Below, in pieces: positions 52,972 through 59,157 of a stretch of 64,000 nt of DNA (position 1 is the stretch's first letter; every line of letters starts with the position of its first letter). Position numbers and translations under genes: made by a program. A model generated the notes under the pieces. It was not told the DNA's origin. It ran no database searches and worked only from the letters and a program-made list of their open reading frames with translations. Source of the stretch: Mesorhizobium ventifaucium. Its GTDB lineage: Bacteria; Pseudomonadota; Alphaproteobacteria; Rhizobiales; Rhizobiaceae. Where the stretch lies: contig NZ_CAKXZS010000034.1 in NCBI RefSeq assembly GCF_935822925.1, positions 1 to 64,000 on the forward strand, written 5' to 3'.

Positions 52972-53224
52972 GGATACCTTCGGCGCTTCACGCAAGAATC
53001 TTTCGTGATTTTGTAATTAAACCACTTCGCTGTCCATTCCATCGCCGGTGATTTTCGGGCAATCGCGCGCCAGGATGTTCATGGATCGTCTATTTGTGCG
53101 GAAGCTTTCCGGGGACGAAGGCCAGGTCGTCTTGCTGGCGTCGTCCGCAACACCTAGATTAGGCCGGAAATCGATCCCTGTGCCGGACGCTTCATTCGCG
53201 TCCGGTTGTTGTGAAAGCCCTGAT

Positions 53225-54199
53225 ATGACGTCCAAGCACGCACCCGTTCTCATTATCGGCTCCGGCCCCGCCGGCTATACGGCGGCAATCTACGCCGCCC
53301 GCGCCATGCTGAAACCGATGCTGGTCGCCGGGCTGCAGCAGGGCGGCCAGCTGGTGATCACCACCGACGTCGAAAACTATCCGGGCTTCGCCGATCCGAT
53401 CCAGGGTCCGTGGCTGATGGAACAAATGCTGAAGCAGGCCGAGCATGTCGGCACCGACGTCATCAATGACATCATCACCGAAGTCGACCTCAATGTGCGG
53501 CCGTTTCGCGCCAAGGGCGATTCCGGCACCACCTATACGGCCGACGCGCTGATCATCGCCACCGGTGCGCAGGCGAAATGGCTGGGCATCCCGAGCGAGC
53601 AGACCTTTATGGGCTTCGGCGTATCGGCCTGCGCCACCTGCGACGGCTTCTTCTATCGCGGCAAGGATGTCGCGGTGATCGGCGGCGGCAATTCGGCGGT
53701 GGAGGAGGCGCTCTACCTTTCCAATCTGGCAAAGAGCGTGACGGTCATCCACCGGCGCAGCGACTTCCGCGCCGAGCGCATCCTCAGCGAGCGGCTGTTC
53801 AAGAAGGACAATGTCCGCGTCATCTGGGACACTGTCGTCGACGAGATCACCGGCCAGTCCGGCAAGACGCCGCTGCCGCCGTCGGTGGAAGGGCTGAAGC
53901 TGCGCAACGTGGTGACCGGCCAGGAGATGCATCTGACGGTCGACGGCGTGTTCGTGGCGATCGGCCATGCGCCGGCGGTCGAGCTGTTCGCCGGCAAGCT
54001 GAAGCAGAAGCCGAACGGCTATCTGTGGACGGCGCCGGATTCGACCTGCACCGACGTGCCGGGCGTGTTCGCCGCCGGCGACGTGACCGACGACATCTAC
54101 CGCCAGGCGGTGACGGCGGCGGGGCTCGGCTGCATGGCCGCGCTCGAGGCGGAAAAGTACCTCGCCGGGATCGAAGTTCACCGCGAAGCGGCGGAGTAA
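53225..54199 (+). CDS. trxB: Thioredoxin reductase
   Basis: NADPH-dependent thioredoxin reductase of 324 residues. FAD site: VLIIGSGPAGYTAAIYAARA. The redox-active disulfide is CATC (about residues 138-141, in GVSACATCDGFFY). The NADPH site is VAVIGGGNSAVEEALYLSN, and the final FAD motif is GVFAAGDVTDDIYRQAVTAA. ATG 53225 gives the standard length; an upstream frame extending to 53048 lacks family similarity. The lsrB gene follows 73 bases downstream, an arrangement known from Sinorhizobium. Confidence 0.96.
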   Translation: MTSKHAPVLIIGSGPAGYTAAIYAARAMLKPMLVAGLQQGGQLVITTDVENYPGFADPIQGPWLMEQMLKQAEHVGTDVINDIITEVDLNVRPFRAKGDSGTTYTADALIIATGAQAKWLGIPSEQTFMGFGVSACATCDGFFYRGKDVAVIGGGNSAVEEALYLSNLAKSVTVIHRRSDFRAERILSERLFKKDNVRVIWDTVVDEITGQSGKTPLPPSVEGLKLRNVVTGQEMHLTVDGVFVAIGHAPAVELFAGKLKQKPNGYLWTAPDSTCTDVPGVFAAGDVTDDIYRQAVTAAGLGCMAALEAEKYLAGIEVHREAAE

Positions 54200-54272: not shown

Positions 54273-55169
54273 ATGGCGTTGGACTGGGACAAGCTACGCG
54301 TGTTTCACGCTGCGGCGGAAGCTGGGTCGTTCACCCATGCCGCCGAGACGCTGCATCTGTCGCAATCGGCGATCTCGCGGCAGGTCAGCGCGCTCGAACA
54401 TGATGTCGGCGTGCCGCTGTTCAATCGCCATGCCCGCGGCCTGGTGCTGACCGAGCAGGGTGAGATGCTGTTCCGCACGGCGCATGACGTGCTGATGAAG
54501 CTGGAGACGATCAAGTCGCGGCTGACCGAGGCCAAGGACCGGCCCTCCGGCGTGCTCAGGGTGACGACCACGGTGGGGCTCGGTGCCGGCTGGCTGACCG
54601 AGCGCGTGCAGGAATTCATTGAGCTCTATCCCGAGATCAGCCTGCAACTGATCCTGGCGAACGAGGAACTCGACCTCACCATGCGCCGGGCTGACTGCGC
54701 GATCCGGCTGCGCCAGCCGCAGCAGCCTGATCTCATCCAGCGCCGGCTGTTCACTGTGCATTTCCATCTCTACGCCGCCCCTTCTTACGTCAACAAATAT
54801 GGCAAGCCGGCGTCGGTCGCCGAGCTGAAGAGCCATCGCATCGTCACCTTCGGCGTGCCGGTGCCGGCGCATCTGTCGGAATTGAACTGGCTGGAAACGG
54901 TCGGCGATTTCGAAGGCGGGCAAAGGGTGCCGACGCTGCAGATCAACGACATATTGTCGATCAAGCGCGCGGTACAAGGTGGCGCCGGCATCGCCATGCT
55001 GCCCGACTATGTGGTCAGCAAGGACTCAGGGCTGGTGCAGTTGCTGCCGGAGACCGAAGTGCCGTCCTTCGACACTTATTTCGCCTATCCCGATGCGATG
55101 AAGAACCAGGCGAAGCTGCACGTCTTCCGCGATTTCATCATCGCCAAGGCCCGAAGCTGGTCGTTCTAA
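54273..55169 (+). CDS. lsrB: LysR-type redox/envelope regulator LsrB
   Basis: A 298-residue LysR regulator with helix-turn-helix LRVFHAAAEAGSFTHAAETL, then LSQSAISRQVSALEHDVGVP and LFNRHARGLVLTEQG. The position directly after trxB and the sequence type identify it as LsrB, which in Sinorhizobium meliloti is needed for normal LPS, oxidative-stress response and nodulation. Only one Cys is present (142, in RRADCAIRL), so any thiol-based sensing must use that residue. A hairpin follows the stop codon. Confidence 0.85.
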   Translation: MALDWDKLRVFHAAAEAGSFTHAAETLHLSQSAISRQVSALEHDVGVPLFNRHARGLVLTEQGEMLFRTAHDVLMKLETIKSRLTEAKDRPSGVLRVTTTVGLGAGWLTERVQEFIELYPEISLQLILANEELDLTMRRADCAIRLRQPQQPDLIQRRLFTVHFHLYAAPSYVNKYGKPASVAELKSHRIVTFGVPVPAHLSELNWLETVGDFEGGQRVPTLQINDILSIKRAVQGGAGIAMLPDYVVSKDSGLVQLLPETEVPSFDTYFAYPDAMKNQAKLHVFRDFIIAKARSWSF

Positions 55170-55206
55170 AGCGCGTCGCATTTGAACGGATATATGCGAC
55201 GCGCTT
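55169..55206 (+). terminator. 13-bp hairpin after lsrB
   Basis: AAGCGCGTCGCAT (55169-55181) pairs perfectly with ATGCGACGCGCTT (55194-55206) around a 12-base loop. Loosely T-rich DNA follows. It probably ends the trxB-lsrB transcript and also looks like a common rhizobial palindrome. Confidence 0.55.
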
Positions 55207-55339
55207 AAGTTTCTTGTTTTTATGCATGTCGTTGTCCCAAAACCGCTGCGCACCCTCGGGTCAGGCCCGAGGGCATGCTTTTGGGCGACACGCATTAGGT
55301 ATATCGATATTCAGGTGATGCCGGCCTAGGAACGGCTGA

Positions 55340-55405
55340 TACCAGCGCTCCCGGTACTCACGGACCCGATGTCCGCTCCGTTCCGGTTCTCGGAACCCAC
55401 CATTC
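55340..55405. repeat. Dispersed repeat, copy 2
   Basis: Related to the repeat at 45798-45883. The shared core reads CGGTACTCACGGACCCGATG then TCCGCTCCGTTCCGGTTCTC, and the flanks (GGTTCTCGGAACC) form a short palindrome. It truncates the following methyltransferase fragment. Confidence 0.6.
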
Positions 55406-55606
55406 GAGGGCAAAACGGGCGAAGGCATGAAGCAGCAAGGCCGCTGCAACGCCAATCAGGACCCAGCCGACCGGGACCAGGCCGGGCTGGGTCGACCATG
55501 GCAGACGATAGCGATCGGTCAACAGCCAGGGCAGCAATCCCGCGACCACACCGGGCGCTGCGATGAAGAACAGCGCGCTGCCGGCGATCGCCTGACGGGT
55601 CCTCAT
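55403..55606 (-). pseudogene. Isoprenylcysteine methyltransferase-like, N-terminal fragment
   Basis: The frame MRTRQAIAGSALFFIAAPGV then VAGLLPWLLTDRYRLPW and LIGVAAALLLHAFARFALE is the membrane-helix N-terminus of the isoprenylcysteine/phospholipid methyltransferase family. Homology stops at about 55403, where the dispersed repeat begins, and the catalytic part is missing. Confidence 0.55.
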
Positions 55607-55908
55607 CGGGGCTTCCTTCGTCGCGATTTTCGGGCCGATGCATGTCTGCCGCAAAAATAATGGCTGCCGCAAAAATAAACGCGCGCTGCCTGATTCGCCA
55701 TCATTCGTTGTTTTCTGCGTTCTGGGCCAAAAATCAGCGCTGATTCGCTATTTCGCGATGATTCTTGACCGGCTGCGCACCGCATTTCGCGATTCTTCTG
55801 GTCCTACGAGGCCAAGCAACGGGTTAGACCACAGCCTGTGTCATTTTGCATGCGAGTGTTGCAAAATAGATGCTTGTTTCTTGGGCATGATGAGCACATA
55901 TATGGATC
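55607..55908. other. Intergenic, AT-richer
   Basis: No coding potential recognised. It holds a direct repeat (TGCCGCAAAAATAA twice, about 55648-55678) and, at the right end, the probable sRNA promoter (CTTGTT at 55873-55878, CATATA at 55897-55902). Confidence 0.4.
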
Positions 55909-56023
55909 ATCTCCTGGGCGCGTTCTCCTCCCATTAGCGCCCTCGAGTGTTCCCCTCTGGAGGTTAGCCTTAACAGGCACTTCCAATCAAACTCAGCCGG
56001 ATCTTTGTTGATCCGGCTTTTTT
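55909..56023 (+). ncRNA. Candidate small RNA, alpha-r14/NfeR1-like
   Basis: About 115 bases between a promoter-like sequence and a strong intrinsic terminator (AGCCGGATC pairs with GATCCGGCT, then six T's). There is no coding gene for the terminator to serve. The first hairpin is GGGCGC/GCGCCC (55916-55921, 55937-55942), and its loop contains CTCCTCCC, an anti-Shine-Dalgarno motif. A second small stem (CCTC with GAGG) follows. Trans-acting rhizobial sRNAs of the alpha-r14 family (NfeR1 in Sinorhizobium) have this size, a CUCCUCCC loop and a 3' terminator. The exact 5' end is approximate. Confidence 0.65.
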
Positions 56024-56367
56024 GTATCCCGAACCTGCCGGCGCTGACGCAAAGCCGACCGAAATTTTCATGTAACAGTGACATGTAACCTCAGGTAACA
56101 TGTCGCAGGCGCGCAGCATCGACTAAGCAGATCATAGGACGCGGTGTGGTTCGTGCGGGAGATGGGGGCATCACTCGGACGATCCGGGCTCAGGCGGCTA
56201 CCGCGTCCGAACCATTCTTCCGCTGAGGCTGGCAAGCGTTGGCGGCATATGCGGCGGACCTGCCGCTTCGCCTCCCACGAAGACGGTCCGCAAGAGAACG
56301 GCGTCCGGATCATTTCCGGGCGCCGTTTCCTTGTGTTCTGCAGCCTGACTGTCGCCAAGTTCCAGTG
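56024..56367. other. Intergenic, no feature recognised
   Basis: Follows the sRNA terminator and precedes the downstream end of the EF-G-like gene. A direct motif, AACAGTGACATGTAAC then GGTAACATGT (about 56073-56102), repeats TAACATG but no function is apparent. Confidence 0.4.
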
Positions 56368-58419
56368 TTAGGCGGCCTTGCCATTGGCGTTCAACGCCTC
56401 GTCGGCCAGGCGGCCGGTGAGTTCGGCCATATGGTCGAAGCTGGCACGATAGCTGGCCACGCCCGCGGTGGCCGAACGCAGCTCGATGATCAGATCGCCG
56501 ATCTCGGCCTGCGGCATGGTCGCCTCGACGACATCCCATCCCGGCCAGCCGGGCCGCGCATCGTAGCCGAGGATTTGGCCGCGCCGCTGCGGGATCAGGG
56601 CGATGATTTTCGATGTCGCGTCGGACGGCGTGACGATTTCCACCTTCATGATCGGTTCAAGCAGCACCGGCGAGCAGGCGGCCATGCCTTCCTTCATCGC
56701 CAGCTTTGCCGCCATCTGGAAGGCCATGTCCGATGAATCGACAGAATGATAGGAGCCGTCGGACAGGTTGACGGCGACGTCGACCACTGGAAAGCCGAGC
56801 GGGCCCGATTTCAGATAATCGCGCACGCCGGCCTCGACCGACTGGATATAGGTTTTCGGCACAGCGCCGCCGGTGATGGTATCGGTGAACTGGAAACCGG
56901 AGCCGCGCGGCAGCGGCTTGATCTCGATCACCACGTCGCCGAACTGGCCATGGCCGCCCGACTGCTTCTTGTGACGGCCACGCTGCTGCGCCGCTTTGCG
57001 GATCGTCTCGCGGTAAGGCACGGCCGGCGGATGGCCTTCGACCGGAATCTGGTTCTTGCCCTCCAGCCGCTCGCGCACGACACGCAGATGCATTTCGCCA
57101 TGGCCCGACAGCACGGTTTCAGCCGAATCCTGATTGTGGCGCACGCTGAGCGAGGGATCTTCTTCGGCAAGGCGCTGGATGGCCGCCGACATCTTAACCT
57201 CGTCCTTGCGTTCCTTCGGTCGCAACGCAAAAGCAAAGACCGGTTGCGGCGGCGTCAGCGTGACCAAGGGCTTGATGCCGCCCTTGACCGAGCTCAAGGT
57301 CTGGCCGGTCGTGACCTCGTCCATCTTGCCGAGCGCGACCGTGTCGCCAGCCGGGGCCGAGGTGAGCTTGGTCTGGTCCTTGCCGAGCATTCTGTAGATG
57401 CCGGAGACCTTTGCTGTCGCGCCATTCGAAAGGAAGAGCTCGGAGGCGTCGGCAAGCTGGCCGGACAGGATGCGCGAGATCGACAGCTTGCCGCCATGCG
57501 CGGTGTGGATGGTCTTCATCACCTGGACCACGGTCGCATTGCCGTCAGGTGCGCCGAGGCGCTTGCGTGTTGCTTCAACATCAGGCGCGTCGTGGCGGAT
57601 CGTTTTTAGCAGCCGCAGCACACCATTGCCCTTCTCGGCGGTGCCGATCAGCACCGGCGTCACGGCACCATCGCGCAAGTCGGCGGCCAGGTCGTCGAAG
57701 ATGGCGTCCTTGGGCGGCTCGATTTCGTCGAGCAGCTGCTCCATCAGTTGATCATCATGGTCGGCGAGCGTCTCCAGCATCGAAAAGCGCGCTTCGAGCT
57801 CGCGCGCCTTGTCGTCGCTGGGAATCTGGGCGACTTCGCTTTCGGCATATTCGCGATAGATGTAGGCGCGCTCCAGCGCCAGATCGATCGAGCCGATCAC
57901 CACGCCGTCCTTGCGCAGCGGAATCTGGCGCAGCAGCAAAGGCACCGAGCTTGCCGGCTGCAGCATCTTCAGCGTGTCGCGCACGCCTGATATCGCCTTG
58001 TCGACCTTGTTGAGGAACATGATGCGCGGCACTCCGAGATCGTCGAGCTTGCGCATGATCAGCTGCAGGGCAGGGATCTTCTTCTCGTCGGCTTCGGCGA
58101 CGACCACGGCGATGTCGCAGGCTGCAAGCACTGGCTCTGCCTCGAAGGAGAATTCTATGGAGCCGGGACAATCGACGAAAGTGAGTTGCTCGCCCATGAA
58201 GTCGGTGGTGGCAAACGTCGCCTCAACGCTCATGGCGTGGGCGCGTGCCTCGAGTGAATGATCGGATACGGTGTTTCCCGAGGAAACGGGATTCTGGCGG
58301 GGAATGGCGCCCGTGCGGGCCAATATGGCTTCGAGAAGTGTCGTCTTACCGCTTGCAAAGGGACCGACTATGGCAATGCATTTCGGTCCCGTGCGTCGTC
58401 CTCCGGTGCGAGTTCCCAT
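56368..58419 (-). CDS. Elongation factor G-like protein (EF-G2 type)
   Basis: A 683-residue translational GTPase of the EF-G-like group, distinct from the essential FusA. The P-loop reads GPFASGKTT (instead of A-H-V/I-D-x-G-K-T/S), G3 is VDCPGS (instead of D-T-P-G-H) and G4 is NKVD. The loss of the switch-2 His suggests altered GTPase activity. Domains II-V follow, including HGQFGDVVIEIKPLPRGSGF and PIMKVEIVTPSDATSKI. GGAGGTCAGTC lies before ATG 58419. It is the sole gene of its transcript. Function of this EF-G2-like group is uncertain; ribosome recycling or stress-related translation is possible. Confidence 0.88.
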   Translation of the reverse strand: MGTRTGGRRTGPKCIAIVGPFASGKTTLLEAILARTGAIPRQNPVSSGNTVSDHSLEARAHAMSVEATFATTDFMGEQLTFVDCPGSIEFSFEAEPVLAACDIAVVVAEADEKKIPALQLIMRKLDDLGVPRIMFLNKVDKAISGVRDTLKMLQPASSVPLLLRQIPLRKDGVVIGSIDLALERAYIYREYAESEVAQIPSDDKARELEARFSMLETLADHDDQLMEQLLDEIEPPKDAIFDDLAADLRDGAVTPVLIGTAEKGNGVLRLLKTIRHDAPDVEATRKRLGAPDGNATVVQVMKTIHTAHGGKLSISRILSGQLADASELFLSNGATAKVSGIYRMLGKDQTKLTSAPAGDTVALGKMDEVTTGQTLSSVKGGIKPLVTLTPPQPVFAFALRPKERKDEVKMSAAIQRLAEEDPSLSVRHNQDSAETVLSGHGEMHLRVVRERLEGKNQIPVEGHPPAVPYRETIRKAAQQRGRHKKQSGGHGQFGDVVIEIKPLPRGSGFQFTDTITGGAVPKTYIQSVEAGVRDYLKSGPLGFPVVDVAVNLSDGSYHSVDSSDMAFQMAAKLAMKEGMAACSPVLLEPIMKVEIVTPSDATSKIIALIPQRRGQILGYDARPGWPGWDVVEATMPQAEIGDLIIELRSATAGVASYRASFDHMAELTGRLADEALNANGKAA

Positions 58420-58761: not shown

Positions 58762-59157
58762 ATGAAGATCATTACTTGCGGCAGCGTGCCGACCGTCATT
58801 GCGCCGGAAAAGTACTTCACCGGCCGGGTGTGGCAGACGCCGATCATCGAGCAGGAAGCGCCGGCGCGGCTACGCGCCATCATGGTCGGTTTCGAGCCCG
58901 GCGCGCGTACCCACTGGCATACCCATCCGCTGGGCCAGACGCTCTATGTCGTGTCAGGCGCCGGCCTCGCGCAAAGCTGGGGCGAGCCGATACAGGCAAT
59001 CAGGGCCGGCGACGTCATCTCGTTTGCGCCTGACGAAAAGCATTGGCACGGCGCCGGTCCGAAATCGGCGATGGCCCATATCGCCATGCAGGAGGCGCTC
59101 GACGGCGTCCATGCCGACTGGCTGGAGAAGGTGACAGACGAGCAGTATGGCGGCTGA
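58762..59157 (+). CDS. Cupin domain protein
   Basis: A 131-residue single-domain cupin. Metal-binding motif 1 is [21 protein letters not shown] (His residues in HWHTH and the following Gln/Glu position) and motif 2 is [10 protein letters not shown]. This subgroup with [19 protein letters not shown] is often annotated as quercetin-2,3-dioxygenase-like or carboxymuconolactone-associated, but no activity can be assigned. ATG 58762 is followed by the family N-terminus ([20 protein letters not shown]). It stands alone. Confidence 0.88.

Follow-up and report, generated by a model that had tools for sequence, protein, structure and literature searches.

An lsrB-linked AbcR (alpha-r15) small RNA locus of Mesorhizobium with predicted solute-binding-protein targets

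Described AbcR systems and the Mesorhizobium locus

Silencing of ABC-transporter mRNAs is the hallmark of the AbcR small RNAs (sRNAs). In Sinorhizobium meliloti, AbcR1 (SmrC16, alpha-r15) is described as lying downstream of lsrB behind a LysR box at -61 to -49 and as forming three hairpins with two anti-Shine-Dalgarno motifs, aSD1 and aSD2 (PMC8844928, PMC7143759); the 8-nt motifs of AbcR1/2 are given as CUCCUCCC and UUCCCCUC, and the LsrB box of PabcR1 as GCAT-N3-TG-N3-T at -61 to -49 (PMC8844928). AbcR1/2 are placed between SMc01226 and lsrB (PMC7143759), and stabilisation of AbcR by Hfq is reported for the same species (PMC3712013). The order in Agrobacterium is given as trxB-vtlR-abcR1-abcR2, with trxB-vtlR called well conserved (PMC7486931), and Brucella abortus AbcR2 and Agrobacterium tumefaciens AbcR1 are described as activated by the LsrB-type regulator VtlR (PMC5461406, PMC7486931). 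Two Brucella motifs are named, M1 (CUCCCA) and M2 (GUUCCC) (PMC5461406). The alpha-r14 family (NfeR1; RF02344) likewise has anti-Shine-Dalgarno loops with CTCCTCCC, three such motifs per RNA, and is reported to share at least one AbcR target in S. meliloti (PMC8844928). For Mesorhizobium, PMC5596092 says that AbcR1/2 had not been discovered in M. huakuii 7653R. No description of a Mesorhizobium AbcR was found in the literature searched, which included the accessible parts of PMC3712013, PMC5596092, PMC7143759 and PMC3927594; subscription journals lay mostly outside its scope, and an earlier description may exist there.

The window analysed in this work, a 64,000-nt stretch of Mesorhizobium ventifaucium DNA (contig NZ_CAKXZS010000034.1, positions 1 to 64,000), contains an AbcR-family sRNA, found with the Rfam model of this known family, downstream of a LysR-type regulator gene (Table 1). 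As in S. meliloti AbcR1, there are three hairpins, an identical aSD1 and an identical aSD2, and both Brucella motifs also occur in the sRNA. S. meliloti AbcR1 and AbcR2 stand in tandem, whereas the two copies here are apart, one beside lsrB and the other on another contig. New in detail are this single copy at lsrB, a diverged hairpin 1, a hairpin 2 longer than in the Rfam model, and an extended palindrome around the promoter box. The locus is very probably best explained as an lsrB-linked AbcR (alpha-r15) sRNA of Mesorhizobium that is activated by LsrB and silences the mRNAs of ABC-transporter solute-binding proteins.

Table 1. Positions of the locus features in the window and of the alpha-r14 loci elsewhere in the genome (with contig).
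Feature	Position	Strand	Remarks
trxB	53048-54199	+	TIGR01292; directly before the LysR-type gene
LysR-type regulator, LsrB/VtlR by gene order	54273-55169	+	Pfam HTH_1, LysR_substrate; predicted sRNA activator
Palindrome TTTTGCA-N9-TGCAAAA	55844-55866	.	predicted LsrB binding site; outer arms identical in 79/79 rows
LsrB/VtlR box GCAT-N3-AG-N3-T	55848-55860	+	predicted; -61 to -49 given start 55909
-35-like CTTGTT	55873-55878	+	79/79 rows
-10-like ACATAT	55896-55901	+	17 bases past the -35 element; ACATAT 66/79, AGATAT 12/79, CGATAT 1/79
AbcR (alpha-r15) sRNA	55909-56023	+	115 nt; RF02345 match, fold z -6.2
Hairpin 1	55911-55947	+	15-nt loop; minimum-energy fold
aSD1, CTCCTCCC	55925-55932	+	in hairpin 1 loop; 79/79 rows; equals S. 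meliloti AbcR aSD1
aSD2, TTCCCCTC	55950-55957	+	unpaired, ahead of hairpin 2; equals S. meliloti AbcR aSD2
Hairpin 2	55958-55985	+	fold; about 9 nt longer than Rfam model (9-nt insertion, cmscan alignment)
Intrinsic terminator	55995-56023	+	9-bp stem (55995-56018), 6-nt loop, T run; terminator scan
alpha-r14 loci, same genome	C18:55499-55818 (two, ~80 bp apart), C16:227274-227391, C34:240328-240441, C1:88291-88408		over cut-off

Family and fold of the small RNA

The Rfam alpha-r15/AbcR model (RF02345) aligned to the locus over its full length with 45.4 bits (cut-off 40; E 8.7e-7 for the 12 kb scanned), a margin of only 5 bits. The initial annotation had named the sRNA alpha-r14/NfeR1-like and proposed a covariance-model search against that family; this search did not bear the name out: the cut-off of the alpha-r14 model (RF02344) is 58.8 bits, and the locus reached 16.8. 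Rfam also returned weak matches here to Esr41, Betaproteobacteria toxic sRNA, RcsR1 and others, which fell well short of their thresholds and were regarded as fortuitous. In a genome-wide alpha-r14 scan, in which 150 of 258 candidates were scored, five other loci exceeded the cut-off with 67.7-97 bits and the sRNA locus was absent from the rows. In each of these five, CTCCTCCC occurs three times, and 13 of the 15 occurrences read CCTCCTCCC; instead of three hairpins each with an anti-Shine-Dalgarno loop, the present sRNA has one CTCCTCCC, in hairpin 1 only. A member of alpha-r14 would bear a number of identical anti-Shine-Dalgarno loops and act in nitrogen and osmotic control, and the CTCCTCCC loop motif, which that family also has, together with the target shared by NfeR1 and AbcR (PMC8844928), points towards such membership. 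Both the gene order and the promoter box are, however, those of AbcR, and membership was rejected on direct scoring and on the alpha-r14 set of the genome itself, which leaves it virtually no chance. Rescanning of eight loci against all of Rfam returned alpha-r15 at cut-off in seven, the exception being L047 (M. ciceri), whose sRNA copy is 97.4% identical. Because the Rfam score is barely over the cut-off here and below it in L047, an AbcR locus of this kind is easy to miss.

Minimum-energy folding of 117 nt gave three stem-loops at -46.7 kcal/mol. Dinucleotide-preserving shuffled controls averaged -27.1 kcal/mol (sd 3.2), with none of 200 reaching the native fold. Both published AbcR motifs are present, aSD1 in loop 1 and aSD2 between hairpins 1 and 2, as in alpha-r15 members. 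The unit of about 115 bases that had been annotated from the sequence, with a promoter-like start, a motif-bearing hairpin loop, a small second stem and a terminator, was recovered in all its parts and at its place. The position from which it had been annotated, 55873, is the first base of the -35-like CTTGTT, and the sRNA proper runs from 55909, a start inferred from the Rfam model and the promoter spacing. As to the accompanying remark that there was no open reading frame (ORF) to serve, mechanical ORFs are listed over the region on both strands; the low conservation of the stretch just upstream (mean column identity 0.53 as against 0.97 in the sRNA) speaks against coding. The sRNA looks like a real gene, of a familiar kind.

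Gene order, promoter box and conservation

The sRNA stands in the order trxB - lsrB/vtlR - abcR of LsrB-controlled members. The name LsrB/VtlR is taken from this order rather than from an alignment with the S. meliloti or Brucella protein; the LysR-type protein is 100% identical to that in three Mesorhizobium records. An Lrp-type gene on the opposite strand lies before trxB, and on the downstream side a convergent EF-G-like gene, likewise on the opposite strand, ends at 56368, 345 bp past the sRNA. This neighbour is what a cis-acting element, such as a leader or an antisense RNA for the EF-G-like gene, would serve, but the sRNA has a terminator of its own ahead of the gene, the two do not overlap, and homologues over the cut-off also occur without lsrB within 1.5 kb, so in other surroundings. 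A cis-acting role is accordingly given only a very slim chance beside a trans-acting AbcR.

Several further features of the region were recorded. A 14-bp hairpin with a T-rich tail (56296-56328, +), terminator-like, lies between the sRNA and the EF-G-like gene. A short ORF without a Pfam match (55358-55672, -) shares 62% identity over 68 residues with the N-terminal part of a 182-aa PEMT/ICMT methyltransferase-like protein at the same place in L090, and looks like a truncated remnant because it stops ahead of the conserved domain. At 58762-59157 (+) the NCBIfam model NF049940 matched above its cut-off, which identifies an (R)-mandelonitrile lyase-type cupin. A match to BASRCI27 (RF02600) at 55097-55305 (-) reached 45.9 bits, below the cut-off of 59.8. 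Of 61 sequences of the same genome that were searched (1.23 Mb, query included), 12 contain its core, in 14 alignments altogether; given this recurrence, the idea of a second sRNA was dropped in favour of a probable dispersed palindromic repeat.

An E. coli-type sigma-70 scan of 55400-56500 found no promoter, and the promoter call relies on conservation instead. The box upstream of it agrees in position and frame with the published LsrB/VtlR box and is one base off consensus. Described as exact in Brucella and Agrobacterium, GCAT-N3-TG-N3-T is also exact in 70 of 79 aligned rows; the window is among the nine with A for T at 55855, the centre of the longer palindrome, and in other genera this centre is T or A. 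The full palindrome pattern had no occurrence in 1,166,801 bases of the genome, and the frame GCAT-N7-[A/T]TGC, which the window fits, had 156 on both strands of the same number of bases. Across 44 box loci, which were not a random sample and consisted of best-scoring copies and some same-genome second copies (L123 and L135 from the genus of the window), the frame was found at -61 to -65 in 24 of 32 with lsrB close upstream and in 6 of 12 others, with one out of register in L224; the published box was exact in 15 of the 32 and in 6 of the 12.

The scan found 331 relatives, of which the top 80 were retained; 77 of these carry Mesorhizobium in their titles. The sRNA lies downstream of lsrB in 79 of these best 80, with 94.8-99.1% identity, and in the remaining one, L090, the contig ends inside the sRNA promoter. 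The alignment holds 79 rows, the window and 78 loci, as L090 has none of the sRNA and L023, with only 65 nt of it inside the locus, was omitted. Mean column identity to the window over these rows was 0.53 upstream (55609-55820), 0.93 at 55840-55872, 0.95 at 55873-55908, 0.97 in the sRNA and 0.76 downstream, and TTCCCCTCT of aSD2 was present in 79 of 79. Standard pairs filled 882 of 896 pair cells, all 14 exceptions falling at the pair 55970/55975. The conservation of structure in sister genomes, which the initial annotation had named as one of two checks on its reading, was present. Covariation within the genus is weak, nearly uninformative evidence, because only one double-sided change (G-C to A-T, 55917/55941) occurred among 31 distinct sRNA sequences in the 79 rows. 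Outside the genus, the first-stem sequence differs and the loop motif is kept, as judged by eye.

Wider scans were run with stricter filters, at the cost of missing weak matches. With these, at least one alpha-r15 match over the cut-off, not necessarily lsrB-linked, was found in 99 of 99 genomes examined in the genus, that of the window included. At family level, 91 of 121 genomes had a match at E <= 0.001 and 80 of 121 had one over the cut-off; at order level the figures were 13 of 101 and 4, and an lsrB-like gene was present in 93 of the 101 at E <= 1e-80. By coordinates, the sRNA adjoins an lsrB-like gene in 9 of the 13 matching order genomes and lies elsewhere in 4.

Predicted targets and the second AbcR copy

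To predict targets, solute-binding-protein genes were located through five Pfam families, with 129 of 150 matches used. Per family, 4/13, 13/54, 1/24, 0/40 and 3/19 matches were dropped, either the lowest-ranking rows or genes that another family had already contributed; any of these genes lying in the fetched stretches are treated as others, a bias against the result. The domain start lay within the fetched stretches for 84 of the 129 matches, and 82 were matched to a called gene, the genome being represented by 60 stretches around many solute-binding-protein genes in which a simple script (gene-score threshold 10) called 990 genes. Duplex energies were computed against -35 to +18 of the gene starts, whose selection relied in part on resemblance to a Shine-Dalgarno sequence, in the same way for every gene. 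The control genes are neighbours of transporter genes, with other transporter genes among them.

Loop 1 paired more strongly with solute-binding-protein genes than with the others (median duplex energy -12.95 vs -9.1, p 1.7e-12). These genes made up 11 of its 25, 15 of its 50 and 26 of its 100 best pairings (expected 2.1, 4.1 and 8.3), and 30 shuffled seeds placed 1-7 of them in the top 50 against 15 for the real seed. The 16S tail as control seed gave 0/25, 3/50 and 11/100, and the loop 1 excess persisted after the dependence on 16S-tail pairing was removed (p 7.6e-10). Fully complementary stretches of 8 nt or longer matched loop 1 at 22 of 82 solute-binding-protein genes and 32 of 908 others, the longest being 13 nt at a Peripla_BP_4 gene (C50:6446); for one alpha-r14 loop the counts were 5/82 and 14/908. 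The target excess for the aSD2 linker is at most weak: its medians were -11.05 and -9.7 (p 3e-5; corrected p 0.02), its top lists held 3/25, 7/50 and 12/100 solute-binding-protein genes (expected 2.1, 4.1 and 8.3; p 0.34, 0.11 and 0.11), and shuffled seeds placed 0-5 among the 50 best. For the linker, fully complementary stretches of 8 nt or longer occurred at 5/82 solute-binding-protein and 7/908 other genes; the full 8-nt complement of aSD2 was at 0 of 990 gene starts, and GGGGAAC at 4/82 solute-binding-protein and 2/908 other starts. The pairing with ABC-transporter translation starts expected of AbcR is therefore predicted for aSD1 and weakly so for aSD2. This pairing supports an AbcR way of working, and the earlier reading of a Rhizobiales trans-acting sRNA that silences ABC-transporter mRNAs through an anti-Shine-Dalgarno loop stands as a prediction.

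By analogy with S. meliloti, Agrobacterium and Brucella, the neighbouring LsrB/VtlR would bind the TTTTGCA-N9-TGCAAAA palindrome at -61 and activate a sigma-70-type promoter, and expression would yield a 115-nt RNA predicted to end at its own terminator and probably held or stabilised by Hfq, as in S. meliloti. Loop 1 (CUCCUCCCAUU) is predicted to pair with the ribosome-binding sites of mRNAs for periplasmic ABC-transporter solute-binding proteins, and the linker UUCCCCUC may serve a further target set. Translation would be blocked and the mRNAs would decay, so that uptake of some nutrients would be turned down.

The second alpha-r15 locus of the genome (L001, contig C22) scored 52.6 bits, and its loop has perfect complements of at least 8 nt at 23 of 82 solute-binding-protein genes and 35 of 908 others, so that the pairing does not separate the two copies. 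Its higher score, the low 45.4 bits of the lsrB-linked copy, the fall of L047 below the cut-off and a hairpin 1 stem unlike that of other families would fit a lsrB-linked relative that has lost or changed its role, by decay or new function, while the C22 copy does the AbcR work. Such a history is considered improbable, since motifs, loop and promoter are nearly invariant and the stems are kept over the 79 rows, which is not decay, and since loop 1 of either copy pairs equally well with solute-binding-protein genes.

The promoter of the C22 copy reads GTTGAA-N16-CCCATAT, starting at -36, which closely resembles the RpoH1 consensus quoted for PabcR2, CTTGAA-N16-CCTATAT (PMC8844928). A pattern admitting these forms stood at -36 in L001, L106 and L110, three of the 31 genus loci tested, and had no occurrence on the two strands of 1,166,801 genome bases. 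Most other genus copies printed have other promoters, and RpoH1-like input is therefore a feature of one second-copy class. A common group among the second alpha-r15 copies of the genus (L102-L105, L107-L109, L111-L117 and L119-L121) shares a different, TTTTTTGGAATT-TTCGTGGAAAAT-like promoter stretch without an LsrB box and without the RpoH1-like pattern.

The arrangement suggests that two separate loci of this genome carry the division of inputs of S. meliloti AbcR1 and AbcR2, without the tandem. A broader reading, put forward tentatively and with somewhat less than even confidence, is that the Mesorhizobium AbcR pair has been un-tandemed: the lsrB-linked copy may still respond to LsrB, with an extended palindrome peculiar to the genus and a hairpin 1 that evolved anew, the copy elsewhere in this genome may have gained or kept an RpoH1-like heat-shock-sigma promoter, and the solute-binding-protein gene set may bear a AAUGGGAGGA-like pairing signature that fits the alpha-r15 loops more closely than the alpha-r14 loop, to a degree for which ordinary Shine-Dalgarno strength does not account.

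The results indicate that the Mesorhizobium loci examined have retained the LsrB-AbcR pair described in Sinorhizobium, Agrobacterium and Brucella. With the predicted target list and binding site, the tuning of nutrient uptake could be tested simply in a genus of legume symbionts and, if the solute-binding-protein genes do bear such a pairing signature, the regulon would be readable from sequence alone.
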